Under the pieces are notes generated by a model. That model saw only the letters and a list, made by a program, of their open reading frames with translations. It had not been told where the DNA came from and searched no databases. The position numbers and the translations under genes were made by a program. Source: Synechococcus sp. AG-679-A04 (GTDB lineage: Bacteria; Cyanobacteriota; Cyanobacteriia; PCC-6307; Cyanobiaceae). From it: a DNA stretch of 64,000 nt. The stretch covers positions 1 to 64,000 of the forward strand of contig QCUI01000005.1 of assembly GCA_003210775.1 (NCBI GenBank), read 5' to 3'. Positions 41,101-46,648 of the stretch are shown here, one piece after another; positions within the stretch are counted from its first letter, which is position 1, and the number at the start of each line of letters is the position of its first letter.

Positions 41101-42104
41101 GCGGATCTGGCTTACCCCGGTTGTTGCTGCTCGCCACCGGTGGCACCATCGCCGGACGTGCGAGTGACGTGACCTCCCTGAATCACTACTCAGCAGGCGT
41201 CATTGCTGCTGAGGACATGCTGCAGTCCGTTCCGCAGCTGCAGCAGCTTGCTGAGATTGAGGTGGAGCAGATCGCCAACGTCGACAGTGCTGATCTGACG
41301 TTCGATCACTGGCACCGATTGGTGGCGCGCATCCGCGAGGCGTTGACCGTCGATCCCGATCTGGCGGGGGTGGTGATCACCCATGGCACCAACACGCTGG
41401 AGGAAACAGCCTGGCTGTTGCAGCTGCTGATCGATGACCCGCGGCCGGTGGTGCTGGTGGGGGCGATGCGGCCTGCAACGGCGCTGAGTGCTGATGGTCC
41501 GCTCAATCTGTTTCAGGCCATGCAGGTGGCCAGAGCGCCGGAGTCCCGTGGGCACGGGGTGCTTGTGGTGATGGATGGCTGGATCCATGCAGCTCGCGAG
41601 GTCACAAAGGTCGCCACTCAGGGGGTTGGTGCCTTTGAAAGCCCTGGTTTTGGCCCCTTGGGTTGGGTGGATGATGCGGGCGTGCACTTGCCTCCAGCGC
41701 AGCCAGCACGTCCTGTTCCTTTCTCAGGCCTTCAGCTTGACGAGCCCTGGCCCCAGGTGGCGATCCTGCATGGTTGCGTCGAGCCTCCGTCGGCCCTGAT
41801 TCCTGCCCTGCTTTCGGCCGGAATACGGGGTCTGGTGTTCACGGGCACTGGGGCTGGCCAGCTGTCGGCGCTTGAACGCTGCGCTCTTGAAAACTGGCCA
41901 GGGCCGCTGCCGCTCATGCTCAGGGCGAATCGCTGTGGTTCTGGGCCCGTGCATCGTGATGAGCAATTTGCCCGCCTTGGCCTTTTGCCCGCCGGGCGGC
42001 TCAGCCCCCAGAAAGCGCGAGTGCTGTTATTGCTGGCTCTGATGGCTGGATTAGATCGCGCAGAGTTGGGAGCATTGATCTCACAACGCGAGCACGTCAG
42101 CTGA
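41097..42104 (+). CDS. L-asparaginase (type I/II family)
   Basis: [27 protein letters not shown]. Confidence 0.93.
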
Positions 42105-43126
42105 TGCCTGCAGCGTCTCCTGAGGCCTATCAAGCTTTCGGCATGCTGCTGTCGTCGTCGTTGGCATTGCCGGAGTTGATGCCAGCCGATGCAGTTCTCA
42201 CCGAACGTGAACCGCTGGTGGAACTGGTGGAAGCTGATCACCGGCAGTGGCCAGCTCTACAGCCCAGCCCTCACAGCACGCCAATGTTGCAGTTGGCGCC
42301 TCAGGAATGGCGTCTGGAATTTGAAGGGATTGGTTGGTTTCGTGCCACTGGCGGTGAGCGTTTGGAATGGCAGCGCTGGGACGACAGCGTCAGCGATCGC
42401 GACATCCGCACGTTTGCTGTCACCAGTGGTCTTGGCGCTTTAGCAATTCAGCGTGGTGGTTTGGTTTTGCATGGAACAGCGCTCGAGCGGGATGGTGAGG
42501 CAATCCTGCTTTTAGGCCATCCAGCTGCTGGTAAGTCCACCCTGGCCTGGTGCTTGCTTCAAGAAGGTTGGCGTTTACTTAGCAGTGAGCTCGTTGCCGT
42601 GAGCTCTGATGGGTTGGTTCAGCCAGGGATACATCAACTCAAGCTTTGGCATGACGCAGCTGTGGCTGTGGATTTGAATTGGGCGCAGTTACCACCTGTA
42701 CGAAAGGGACTCAAGCGATATGCATTAATGGCGCAAGATTTGACTTGCATGCCACAGCCAACACCATTAAGGCTGATCTATAGCTTAAATCGCGCCAAAG
42801 AGGATTCGGGTAAAGAAAATGATATTGAGGTAGGAGATGACAAGGAGAAAATCTCTCTCAAGGCTTCACGCAATTTTTCACAAACAAATGCCTTATTGCG
42901 CCTGCGCAACCAAGCCTTTCACGCCAGGATGTATCGAGGTATGGATGCAGAAGCGCAGATGTTTATGCAGGCAGCTGGACTGGCTCGAACGGTGCCGTTG
43001 CATGCCTTGATCGTTCCAGATGGAATCAGAGCGATGGCCGAAAGCCTGAAGAAGGTGAATCTGATGCAACCCGAATCAATGCAACAGCGCAAAGAAGCTA
43101 TAGAAGAGGACGCAAGCAATGACTGA
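42104..43126 (+). CDS. HPr kinase-like protein (HprK-related kinase A type)
   Basis: YQAFGMLLSSSLALPEL N-terminal motif; Walker A LLLGHPAAGKSTLAWCLL; SSELVAVSSDG; 1-nt start/stop overlap with the asparaginase gene. Confidence 0.75.
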   Translation: MPAASPEAYQAFGMLLSSSLALPELMPADAVLTEREPLVELVEADHRQWPALQPSPHSTPMLQLAPQEWRLEFEGIGWFRATGGERLEWQRWDDSVSDRDIRTFAVTSGLGALAIQRGGLVLHGTALERDGEAILLLGHPAAGKSTLAWCLLQEGWRLLSSELVAVSSDGLVQPGIHQLKLWHDAAVAVDLNWAQLPPVRKGLKRYALMAQDLTCMPQPTPLRLIYSLNRAKEDSGKENDIEVGDDKEKISLKASRNFSQTNALLRLRNQAFHARMYRGMDAEAQMFMQAAGLARTVPLHALIVPDGIRAMAESLKKVNLMQPESMQQRKEAIEEDASND

Positions 43127-44000
43127 AGATCACAGCTACTGGTATCTAGCCTCGTATCCAAAATCAGGCAACACCTGGTGTCGGGTTTTTATTACTGAAT
43201 TGATGAGGCTGGCAGGAGACAATCTTAGAGAAGAATTAAACCTTAATCAAGATATTGAAACTGGAGCGATTGCCTCATCCAGGCTCTGGCTGGATGATCA
43301 ATTAGGAGTTAACAGTTGTGATCTGAGTTTTTGCGAACTCGATCCCTTGCGCGGACGTGCTGGCGCCAGTGCATGGCTATTCGCAGAAGGGGAGCGCTTT
43401 CACAAAGTGCATGATGCATTCCAGTCTCGCGATTCCCGTGGACGTCCGGTGGTGAGTACGACAGGTTGCTCAGGAGTTGTTTATATCCTGCGCCACCCAG
43501 AGGATGTGGCCGTATCACTCGGCCACTTCTTCTCATGGCCTCTGGATCGATGTGTTGATTTTTTGCTGGATCCAAGTGCAGCGCTGATGCCAGGTGAACA
43601 CTTTGGCGGCCATCAAGTACGCCAGCACATGGGCCGCTGGGATCAACATGTGCGCTCATGGGTCGATCAAACTCAACTACCAGTTTTGATAATGCGCTAT
43701 GAGGATATGTTGGCAAAAGGGTCAGAAACATTTACAGAATTAGCAACCTTTCTGGGCCTGCCTAGCGAGGCTCATCTTATTGATCAAGCACTAGAAAACA
43801 CCTCTATTGAGAAACTCAAGAAACTTGAGGAAGATCTGGATGGCTTTGCAGAAAAGCCTGCCGGTTGTGAGCGTTTCTTTCGCTCAGGTCGGACAGGAGA
43901 AGGCGCAGATCGGCTTTCAAATGTGCAGCGACAACGACTCGTAAAGGGATTGTCTGAGGTGATGAAGCGCTTTCAATATGAGGGTCCAGAAGTTGACTAA
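43119..44000 (+). CDS. Sulfotransferase domain protein
   Basis: PAPS-binding LASYPKSGNTWCRVF; VVYILRHPEDVAVSLGHFF; MRYEDMLAKGSETFTELATFLGL. Confidence 0.9.
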   Translation: MTEDHSYWYLASYPKSGNTWCRVFITELMRLAGDNLREELNLNQDIETGAIASSRLWLDDQLGVNSCDLSFCELDPLRGRAGASAWLFAEGERFHKVHDAFQSRDSRGRPVVSTTGCSGVVYILRHPEDVAVSLGHFFSWPLDRCVDFLLDPSAALMPGEHFGGHQVRQHMGRWDQHVRSWVDQTQLPVLIMRYEDMLAKGSETFTELATFLGLPSEAHLIDQALENTSIEKLKKLEEDLDGFAEKPAGCERFFRSGRTGEGADRLSNVQRQRLVKGLSEVMKRFQYEGPEVD

Positions 44001-44544
44001 TCTTCGTATTGAATTTGTATTTGGAGAGGTGAATGATCAGCTAAGGCGCGAGTTGAGAGCTTTCTGGGGCCTGTATACTAATGCATATCAAGAAGAATTG
44101 AGTTCGTTCAGAGTTGCATCAAGAAACAGCCATGGCTTAAAGCAAATGGATCTATTTAAAAAGCCTATATCGCGTCAGCCAGCTGCACTTTCACGTGATC
44201 AATCAGGCGCGATTAATGGCATTGTGTTTGTTGTGTTAAGAGAGCTAGATGGCTCGCTAGAGCTCGGAACCCACGCCTACTTTCAACGCATGTATATCGT
44301 CCCAGAATCCAGGCAGCCACGTTTAGCGAATCAACTGTTTAGAGCGTTTCTTCACGGGTTTGATCGTGATGCAGGGAAACGTGATCATCGAGCAAAAGTA
44401 TTGCTGGCTGAAAACATTAATCCTGGCTTACAAAAGGCCTTCATGCGGCGTTATTTTGCACGCCTTGGGTTCCAAATGCTTGGAGGAAATCAACTCGGTG
44501 GTGAAATTTGGGTTAGAAAGCTCAAAACATACTTCTCATTTTAA
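43978..44544 (+). CDS. GNAT-like acyltransferase
   Basis: Central AYFQRMYIVPESRQPRLANQLFRAFLHG and C-terminal FARLGFQMLGG resemble GNAT motifs; start may be internal. Confidence 0.6.
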   Translation: MRVQKLTNLRIEFVFGEVNDQLRRELRAFWGLYTNAYQEELSSFRVASRNSHGLKQMDLFKKPISRQPAALSRDQSGAINGIVFVVLRELDGSLELGTHAYFQRMYIVPESRQPRLANQLFRAFLHGFDRDAGKRDHRAKVLLAENINPGLQKAFMRRYFARLGFQMLGGNQLGGEIWVRKLKTYFSF

Positions 44545-44822
44545 TCATCAACTACGGCAATCACTTTCTTTTCCAAGGCAGCTTCCAGCCATGCTTCAAC
44601 AGAGGTCTTGCATTCATCCGGAGTGACTTCATATTCACCCTCTAAATGCTTGCAGAGTTCAACCAGCGTTGGCTGAACTTTCAGTGCATTCCAAATGGCT
44701 GAACCTGTCTCGTTGAGAACAAGATACTCGCAGGTGTTGCTTTGAAATAAAGCCACTTCGCCATCAAGTTCAGTGCAGGCAGCTTGGTGATGCTGCTTAA
44801 AACGTCTGGTGTTACCAACCAT
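44541..44822 (-). CDS. PqqD-like (RiPP recognition element family) protein
   Basis: VALFQSNTCEYLVLNETGSAIWNALKVQPTLVELCKHLEGEYEVTPDECKTSVEAWLEAALEKKVIAV matches the PqqD-family pattern LNxTGxxIWxxL. Confidence 0.8.
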   Translation of the reverse strand: MVGNTRRFKQHHQAACTELDGEVALFQSNTCEYLVLNETGSAIWNALKVQPTLVELCKHLEGEYEVTPDECKTSVEAWLEAALEKKVIAVVDD

Positions 44823-45100
44823 CTAACTTTTAAATGCATCATTGGCGTCTAGTGCATGATCGCATAGACCCTTGGTCTAGGTATGGCATCTCAACCGCGC
44901 TATTTGCCAGCAGGCCATAACGATTCACTGGTGCTCAGCGTCCCGGTGGATCGGGCTGCCGCTGAACGAGTATTGGCCGGATCTGCCGTTTAATTGCAGG
45001 ATGGATTGAGAATTAAGTCCTGGCTGTCTCTGCTCAGCTTCGCTCAAACGTGCCAGGCATTGAAGGCTTATTTATGAGCTTTTAGGGGTGATTGAAGCAA

Positions 45101-45130
45101 TAAAAAGCCCCTGTCAATGCAGGGGCCTTG
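45101..45130 (-). terminator. Putative Rho-independent terminator for the minus-strand Nif11 gene
   Basis: Minus strand reads GGCCCCTGCATTGACAGGGGCTTTTTATT: stem GCCCCTG/CAGGGGC followed by a T-run. Confidence 0.75.
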
Positions 45131-45204
45131 AGCATGTCGCAAAACAGATATCAAGCCAAAAGATTATTCTGGGTGTTGGCTGCATCTAAGTTTTGAGTAA
45201 TAGT

Positions 45205-45450
45205 TTAGAGCGTACATTCGACATCCATTGAAGTCGTTTCGTTGCATATACCTTTTACGCCAACACCACCGGCTACACTTTCTAGATCCACCTCACTGAG
45301 ACTGTTGAACTTATCAGGAGTGAATTCATGGCCATGTTCTCTAGCAATGGCTATAACATCGTCAGGTGACTTAGCTGCTTTTAGTTTCTGCTGAAGACTG
45401 TTATTGCCTTGGATTTTGACAAGAAATGCCTTGAGTTGTTCTAGGGACAT
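45205..45450 (-). CDS. Nif11-leader (prochlorosin-like leader) peptide; candidate RiPP precursor
   Basis: MSLEQLKAFLVKIQGNNSLQQKLKAAKSPDDVIAIAREHGHEFTPDKF Nif11 region; LSEVDLESVAGG cleavage motif; core VGVKGICNETTSMDVECTL. Confidence 0.85.
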   Translation of the reverse strand: MSLEQLKAFLVKIQGNNSLQQKLKAAKSPDDVIAIAREHGHEFTPDKFNSLSEVDLESVAGGVGVKGICNETTSMDVECTL

Positions 45451-45610
45451 GGGTCTGAGGTCTGTTCAGCAGTCATAGCAATGGTAAGCAAGGCGCGCCA
45501 TATCAGTAGGGATGGCAATAAAAACCTGCACTTGGAAGGGCCAAGTAATAATCAGAGAAAGCAATTACGTGCGAGCCAGGAAAACAACTTCGAGTAAAAT
45601 ATTGATAAGC

Positions 45611-46648
45611 TTAACATGCTTGATCATCGCAAAATGGGACACACACAAAGAGGTTGCAGGCAAATGTTGGGCATCCGCATTGACCTAAATTCCTGCACTC
45701 CCCAGGCTGCATGTAGCATCCATCCGCAACTTTTATATCTCGATTAGCAATAGAACCTGTCAGTGATTGAATCACTGGTGTTTGCCAAGTTTTCTTCTCT
45801 ACTGTTGTTGCATTACCCGTACCAAAGCGATATTTAACATTGCCTGACACTCTGGTCTCAAAGATATCATCATGACTAGCCTGTAGCCCAAATATAAGAC
45901 TGTCAGATGCTTCGTATTCGAGTGCAACTTGCCCTCCTGATGAGCTCTCAGTTACGTAACAATCGGTATCTTGATAATAGTATCCAGCTTTTAACTTCAA
46001 GTTAGGTCTCAAGTAATAGCTTGCATCTAATCCATAAAGATCAAGCGCGCCGCCATTGTAGTTAGAATTTAGCCGTTGAAATGTATTTCCTACTGGAATG
46101 TTGGTATAAGCATTTAACCCAAGGCCACTTTCATGTACTGCTTCTGCATTGAAGGCAATTTGCTGGAAAAGGACTGTCCTCTTATCCCTAACACTCACTC
46201 CTGTATCTGCATTGCCTGAAGCGAGAGGACGGCTGTCATAACCAGCATTCAGCCCATACATCCAGGAGCGATCGTTATTCAGCCAGCGGTAGCCCAGTCT
46301 GGAGGAGGTGCTGATGGTGGTACCAGCAACATCGGTGTTGCTAATGCTGCTCTCGCCTGCTCGATCAGCGAAGTTCACATTCGCCAATGCATCAAAGAAG
46401 AAGACGCTGTTCTCGCCCACAGACAGCGGCAGGAACCCGCCAATACCGGCTTGGTTGGGTGTTCCTGCCCCTTGCAGTGCTCCCTGGAACCCCCAGTTGA
46501 AATTGATGGCGTCTTTGAGGTTGATCTCCATCACCCCGAGATCATCTGCACTGCCCTCTTGAGCAACGGCAGGCAGCAGAGCACTATTAGCGAGTGCCAG
46601 TGCAGCAACACCGCTCAGTGATAGCGACAGGTGCAGGGAACGCTGCAT
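45611..46648 (-). CDS. Outer membrane beta-barrel protein (inverse-autotransporter-like barrel) with Cys-rich C-terminal tail
   Basis: Signal peptide; alternating amphipathic strands (SSRLGYRWLNNDRSWMYGLNAGYDSRPL...LFQQIAFNAEAVHESGLGLNAYTNIPVG); tail DGCYMQPGECRNLGQCGCPTFACNLFVCVPFCDDQAC. Confidence 0.75.
   Translation of the reverse strand: MQRSLHLSLSLSGVAALALANSALLPAVAQEGSADDLGVMEINLKDAINFNWGFQGALQGAGTPNQAGIGGFLPLSVGENSVFFFDALANVNFADRAGESSISNTDVAGTTISTSSRLGYRWLNNDRSWMYGLNAGYDSRPLASGNADTGVSVRDKRTVLFQQIAFNAEAVHESGLGLNAYTNIPVGNTFQRLNSNYNGGALDLYGLDASYYLRPNLKLKAGYYYQDTDCYVTESSSGGQVALEYEASDSLIFGLQASHDDIFETRVSGNVKYRFGTGNATTVEKKTWQTPVIQSLTGSIANRDIKVADGCYMQPGECRNLGQCGCPTFACNLFVCVPFCDDQAC

Follow-up and report, generated by a model that had tools for sequence, protein, structure and literature searches.

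A prochlorosin-type precursor gene of Synechococcus sp. AG-679-A04 and its constant–variable–constant gene anatomy

Introduction

A gene for an 81-residue peptide in the genome of Synechococcus sp. AG-679-A04 raises two questions: which enzymes would mature a Nif11-leader precursor that has no synthetase beside it, and by what route did it come to carry its particular core? The gene was found in a stretch of 64,000 nucleotides (the window), which is part of contig C5 of a 2.28 Mb assembly that has 107 contigs, is 74% complete and may lack further maturases. Prochlorosins, their LanM, their transporters and the presence of recombination genes nearby are already known (PMC10783134). Further, degraded transposases border paralogous nif11-domain genes in Prochlorococcus MIT9313, and insertion sequence (IS) elements were proposed to move or regulate these genes; the bordering elements had no identifiable ends, and no link to a variable segment was reported (Sullivan et al. 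2009, PMC2784084). The analysis presented here indicates that the peptide is probably one of dozens turned into ring-shaped compounds by a single distant enzyme. The comparison of ~190 genes of this kind suggests an exchange of their variable ends in the form of ready-made segments, which lie beside the tail of a transposon-like element.

The precursor peptide and its probable distant enzymes

The preliminary description, made from the window alone, had identified an intact Nif11-leader reading frame with a GG motif and a 19-residue Cys/Thr/Ser core, and this observation is confirmed. The same 81-residue sequence was recovered, and its matches to Pfam Nif11 (8e-19; 68.1 bits, cut-off 23.8; residues 1–46) and to the NCBIfam Nif11 leader TIGR03798 (6.5e-21; 74.4 bits, cut-off 32.3; residues 1–62) lie so far above the cut-offs that a chance ORF is ruled out. 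The VAGG motif ends at residue 62, and the core that follows, VGVKGICNETTSMDVECTL, contains two Cys (Cys7 and Cys17) and four Ser/Thr (Thr10, Thr11, Ser12 and Thr18) among its 19 residues. The leader is of the EHGHEF subtype; its TIGR03798 score and VAGG site agree with the prochlorosin-type leader that had been proposed, and the interpretation of the gene as a prochlorosin-type precursor is well supported. The gene had also been called solitary, which is correct locally but not genome-wide, as a profile search returned 43 Nif11 matches in the same genome. When 300 genomes of the family were searched with the core alone, no convincing relative was found, and the core of a paralogue on contig C2, with CNET, is weakly similar in DNA. 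With the whole peptide as query, a contig scan returned a single, distant match in Cyanobium. No match was found in PHROGs.

The lack of an adjacent synthetase had been taken to reflect a promiscuous LanM far away, and the genome is arranged in this manner. Profile searches detected no LanM in the window or elsewhere on contig C5, and one full LanM in the genome, on contig C24 (DUF4135 1.7e-95; TIGR03897 705 bits). The cyclase (LANC) domain of this enzyme carries WCHG and CCG motifs, the CCG zinc motif being a mark of ProcM-like LanM enzymes (PMC10783134). Beside it lies the one C39-ABC exporter found in the genome, a 734-residue ABC transporter (Peptidase_C39 2.1e-30), in a cluster that also holds a HlyD-like gene and a second, NHLM-type ABC gene. 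Both components that the preliminary description had proposed to look for, a ProcM-like LanM and a C39-ABC transporter, are therefore present, and the lack of any LanM or other Nif11 maturase by which it would have been refuted is not seen. Among 31 genomes of the same genus, the 12 with a full LanM hold between 3 and at least 150 Nif11 matches each, compared with 0–4 in each of the 19 without (Mann–Whitney p 4.6e-6); the exception among the former is G006, with a LanM and 3 matches.

Features of the window and related loci (positions are those of the window unless a locus is named)
Feature	Position	Strand	Basis
Nif11-leader precursor gene (prochlorosin/synechococsin-type), 81 aa	45205..45450	-	Profile matches and sequence
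Leader, 62 aa; VAGG end is the predicted C39 cleavage site	45265..45450	-	TIGR03798 residues 1-62; constant block in ~190 loci
Variable core VGVKGICNETTSMDVECTL and stop	45205..45264	-	No similar core in 300 family genomes
Conserved upstream segment, start of block A	45451..45485	-	DNA shared with dozens of Nif11 genes from ~45485
3'UTR, unconserved, part of the variable segment	45133..45204	-	Locus comparison
Constant 3' block B: terminator and AATCAGCCTTCAATACCTGGCAC-like element	45036..45132	-	Locus comparison, iterated HMMs
Intrinsic terminator, 10-pair stem and T-run (TTTTTATT after the stem)	45104..45129	-	Scan; kept in block B
RAYT/IS200-like transposase gene remnant (MASQPRYLPAGH...)	44883..44990	+	Full-length here in relatives
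RAYT/IS200-like transposase genes in relatives	L162:8923-9711; L164:660-1478
HprK-like kinase, sulfotransferase, GNAT-like protein and PqqD set	42104-44822
Intimin-like barrel protein with hypervariable Cys-rich tail; family carries block B elsewhere	45611..46648	-	Predicted model and profiles

A variable segment between constant blocks

A comparison of the gene and its flanking DNA with procA-type loci from its own genome and from two others (G025 and G008) revealed two sharply bounded blocks of similarity. Block A (~45485–45264) comprises 35 nt of upstream DNA and the leader, and block B (45132–45038, 94 nt) comprises the terminator and ~65 nt more. The core and 3'UTR of the window gene match almost nothing at the loci compared. 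Within the upstream part of block A, a -10-like TATGAC (45477–45472) with TGC ahead of it may serve as a promoter. The stem-loop and T-run terminator previously noted downstream on the same strand is real, and turned out to be one half of the larger block B. Its stem begins 75 nt beyond the stop codon. Although the terminator scan alone is unremarkable (3 sites found against 2.1 expected), the terminator is counted as real because it belongs to a block conserved at ~190 related loci. A search of Rfam with block B gave no match, and RNAalifold gave 3 pairs, hence no conserved RNA fold is claimed beyond the terminator.

In the loci of three genomes, iterated HMMs gave 194 matches to block B, and in 168 cases a Nif11 ORF lies ahead of it. 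Across 192 genes the mean pairwise identity is 0.67 for block A and 0.67 for block B, and that of the core (0.475; shuffled 0.467) and the 3'UTR (0.410; shuffled 0.395) is at the level of shuffled sequence. Distances in the leader and in block B correlate weakly (Mantel r 0.07, p 0.04). The idea that cores are more conserved in genes lacking block B (31/77 against 38/195) was dropped as confounded by age and contig ends.

Mosaic genes and the proposed exchange of segments

Gene pairs that share at least 86% identity in block A and have unrelated cores stop matching at the GG codons (median -4 nt); the match resumes at block B (median 1 nt). The complementary set consists of 15 cross-species pairs with the same core, not all of them independent. 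Here the identity rises from 0.82 in the 5' half of the leader to 0.96 in its 3' half, stays at 0.96 in the core and 0.95 in the non-coding 3'UTR, and is 0.89 and 0.83 in the two halves of block B (Wilcoxon p 3e-5 for the 3' over the 5' half of the leader, 2e-4 for the UTR over the 5' half). The rise towards the 3' half of the leader is not general conservation, because pairs with unrelated cores do not have it (0.64 in the 3' half, 0.71 in the 5' half). The breakpoints of the 15 mosaic pairs fall inside both constant blocks, which suggests that a core-plus-UTR segment is exchanged by recombination. For the window gene, the core of which has no same-core partner, we infer such an exchange by kinship, since its siblings show it.

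A different process could produce equally sharp junctions. If gene conversion among paralogues, confined to the homologous blocks, kept these blocks alike, the cores would stay put and nothing would be swapped. However, pairs with unrelated cores are as similar between genomes as within them (0.685 and 0.688 for the leader, 0.704 and 0.706 for block B), which argues against homogenisation inside genomes. Further, the same-core pairs are closest in the core, the 3'UTR and the adjoining half of the leader, and their divergence grows outwards. Conversion without exchange is hence considered unlikely.

It is also quite unlikely that the genes arose by ordinary tandem duplication, their cores drifting fast through mutation and indels and block B being a mere conserved terminator. 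Indel-driven core diversification has been proposed in the literature (PMC10783134), and procA genes frequently occur in arrays. However, one pair is 99% identical in block A, upstream segment and leader together, and yet unrelated both in the core and in the non-coding 3'UTR. Further, the conservation continues ~65 nt beyond the terminator and is also found behind barrel genes that have no leader homology. Exchange of the segment between the constant blocks remains the preferred reading.

Block B and a RAYT/IS200-like transposase

A covariance model of block B matched 60 of the 400 genomes of the family that were searched. In the loci read out, which represent a mixed sampling, the gene ahead of block B is a Nif11 gene in 66 cases, an intimin-like barrel gene in 38 and another gene in 17. 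In other genera, a GG-leader or barrel gene precedes 29 of 31 sites picked by their block B score, HMM and motif calls being combined. Further gene types ahead of block B were seen at loci L294, L315, L325 and L299; these types include a family of 213–232 aa with a variable Gly-rich stretch at its end, a different leader with a TSVSGG end and a short ELTIEQLECVAGG leader. The distance from ORF end to block B is ~40–50 nt at L294 and L315 and 58 nt at L325.

Convergent to the genes that carry block B lies a Y1 (HUH) transposase gene with a Y1_Tnp domain (Pfam 4.6e-14), which scores 65.8 bits against NF047646 (REP-associated tyrosine transposase, RAYT), under the cut-off of 80 and hence short of an equivalog-level match. 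In 41 of the 44 cases examined its 3' end lies 133–158 nt from block B (median 137), and in the loci found through the RAYT gene (L331–L360), a gene of the barrel or GG-leader kind lies on the far side of block B in 22 of 25 cases. Given this fixed distance, the simplest explanation of block B is that a RAYT-type element has its 3' end there. Many copies of block B occur in G000, G013 and G025, none of which has a RAYT homologue, and the block thus persists without this RAYT. Near genes with variable C-termini the RAYT gene is often truncated from its N-terminal side, the 3' end and block B being kept.

Block B and the RAYT/IS200-like transposase could form a dedicated system for replacing the 3' ends of genes, by exchanging the stretch that separates the transposon end from a constant coding part on the 5' side. 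Such a system would serve at least two unrelated families, the secreted Nif11 lanthipeptide precursors and the surface intimin-like barrels with disulfide tails. This proposal is tentative and, at present, somewhat doubtful, and any causal role of the RAYT in the exchange is hypothetical. The state of the element in the window, where the RAYT gene is cut down to its N-terminus, might instead mean that the precursor gene is an unexpressed relic carried by a decayed transposon, and several sibling Nif11 genes are indeed truncated or interrupted by stops. That the window gene is such a relic is very unlikely, however, as its ORF and GG site are intact, and so are the upstream block and the terminator.

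The neighbouring barrel and PqqD genes

The AlphaFold2 model of the barrel protein next to the precursor gene (pLDDT 65, pTM 0.64) has its best matches in intimin (4e1s; E 8.3e-10, TM 0.76 on target) and invasin translocators, the Pfam IAT_beta match being under the cut-off. The predicted barrel therefore resembles inverse autotransporters of the intimin/invasin type, but it would carry a short (~10–100 aa), even-Cys hypervariable tail rather than Ig-like domains. Genomes hold up to 21 matches to this family, with members at L137–L170 and L288–L329. The proteins, which have an NRDVRVHD-like linker, are conserved to about residue 310 and then pass into a hypervariable tail, in which the number of Cys is even in 55 of 58 cases. 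The family looks like a surface display of disulfide-looped variable tails. Variable segments common to Nif11 and barrel genes were also sought; four weak matches were judged to be 3' flank, and no tail was shared.

In relatives, the order at this locus is barrel, (usually) block B, RAYT and PqqD, followed by GNAT-like, sulfotransferase and HprK-like genes that face the other way; in the window, the Nif11 gene sits between the barrel and block B. Judged by PqqD, 8 of 31 genomes of the genus hold the conserved HprK-like/sulfotransferase/GNAT-like/PqqD set, as a rule beside barrel genes, and the best matches of its PqqD are to lasso and HPr-rel-A families, under the cut-off. These four genes lie within 3.4 kb of the precursor and PqqD is a RiPP recognition domain, which makes them candidates for the peptide's own maturases. 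Yet relatives keep the set together with no Nif11 gene between it and the barrel, and most Nif11 genes lack such neighbours. The set thus appears to belong with the barrels, it could modify barrel tails or another peptide, and that it acts on the precursor is highly improbable. Between SelO and asparaginase, the barrel and HprK genes are reduced to fragments in G013 (L171:4516-4982) and nothing is present in G023 (L172), so the insert of the window comes and goes among close relatives.

Thioether rings or a disulfide

The preliminary description had allowed for lanthionine-type rings or a disulfide. The composition of 251 GG-containing precursors from nine genomes fits the rings: Cys occurs together with Ser/Thr in 233 of the 251 cores, and makes up 10.7% of core residues against 0.13% of leader residues. 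Disulfide pairing would favour even Cys counts. The Cys-containing Nif11 cores have 112 even and 123 odd counts (p 0.51). In the barrel family next door, 50 tails have an even and 3 an odd count (p 6e-12; Fisher p 3e-11 between the two families). As the even-Cys bias is present in the barrel tails and absent from the cores, thioethers fit the Nif11 family better, and the disulfide half of the earlier suggestion is disfavoured. It is accordingly most improbable that the peptide is no lanthipeptide and leaves the cell unmodified or with one Cys7–Cys17 disulfide: exactly two Cys and no adjacent maturase would suit such a product, but a ProcM-type LanM is present and tracks the number of Nif11 genes, and the parity of the cores is not that of the barrel tails.

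In prochlorosin 1.1 the rings join Cys3 to Thr7 and Thr12 to Cys16, and in prochlorosin 2.8 Cys3 to Ser9 and Ser13 to Cys19 (PMC10306099). The core of the window peptide has no Ser/Thr ahead of Cys7, so the first ring is predicted to have its Cys on the N-terminal side. By analogy, our guess at the pattern would be Cys7–Thr11 and Ser12–Cys17, a layout as in prochlorosins 1.1 and 2.8.

Proposed mechanism and comparison with known systems

Taken together, a prochlorosin-type precursor with a distant LanM, C39-ABC export, two rings and cassette exchange is a likely account of the gene. The Nif11 leader would recruit the one promiscuous LanM, of ProcM type, whose gene lies on another contig. By dehydrating Thr10, Thr11 or Ser12 and adding Cys7 and Cys17, the enzyme would form two thioether rings. 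The C39-ABC transporter would then cleave after GG and export the product. The gene itself may be viewed as a constant 5' block (promoter-like region and leader), a variable core with its 3'UTR, and a constant 3' block B (terminator and putative RAYT-transposon end). Recombination inside the constant blocks would exchange the variable segments between loci and species and, with the leader left as it is, could give rise to new cores behind it.

Much of this arrangement is shared with the prochlorosins and synechococsins (ProcA/SyncA, ProcM/SyncM), namely the Nif11 leader, the GG site, the short variable Cys/Ser/Thr core, the C39-ABC and HlyD genes beside LanM, and the many precursors per genome with diverse cores and one CCG-type LanM elsewhere (PMC10783134). 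Unlike those described, the window peptide has a new core sequence and the EHGHEF leader subtype. Compared with the IS elements near nif11 genes in MIT9313, the block found here is defined and conserved, keeps a constant spacing from the RAYT stop and immediately follows the variable segment; it also follows a second gene family. Similarly, REP/RAYT systems combine a Y1 transposase with a short, hairpin-bearing extragenic repeat dispersed in the genome, but the repeat of 94 nt seen here lies mostly behind genes with variable C-termini. No description of a shared block B, of block B behind barrel genes or of the mosaics was found in the literature compared, PNAS 2017 (doi 10.1073/pnas.1700990114) lying outside the comparison.

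Implications

The findings bear on the origin and maintenance of the great diversity of prochlorosin cores in picocyanobacteria. What they add lies in the cassette structure, its link to the RAYT end and the second family with variable tails. The mosaics and the shared 3' block lead to the testable claim that cores travel as segments between constant flanks. These segments would adjoin the end of a single-strand transposase element, and variable surface proteins would use the same block. If the claim is true, one shared mechanism in these genomes would renew the variable ends of secreted and of surface-exposed products alike.
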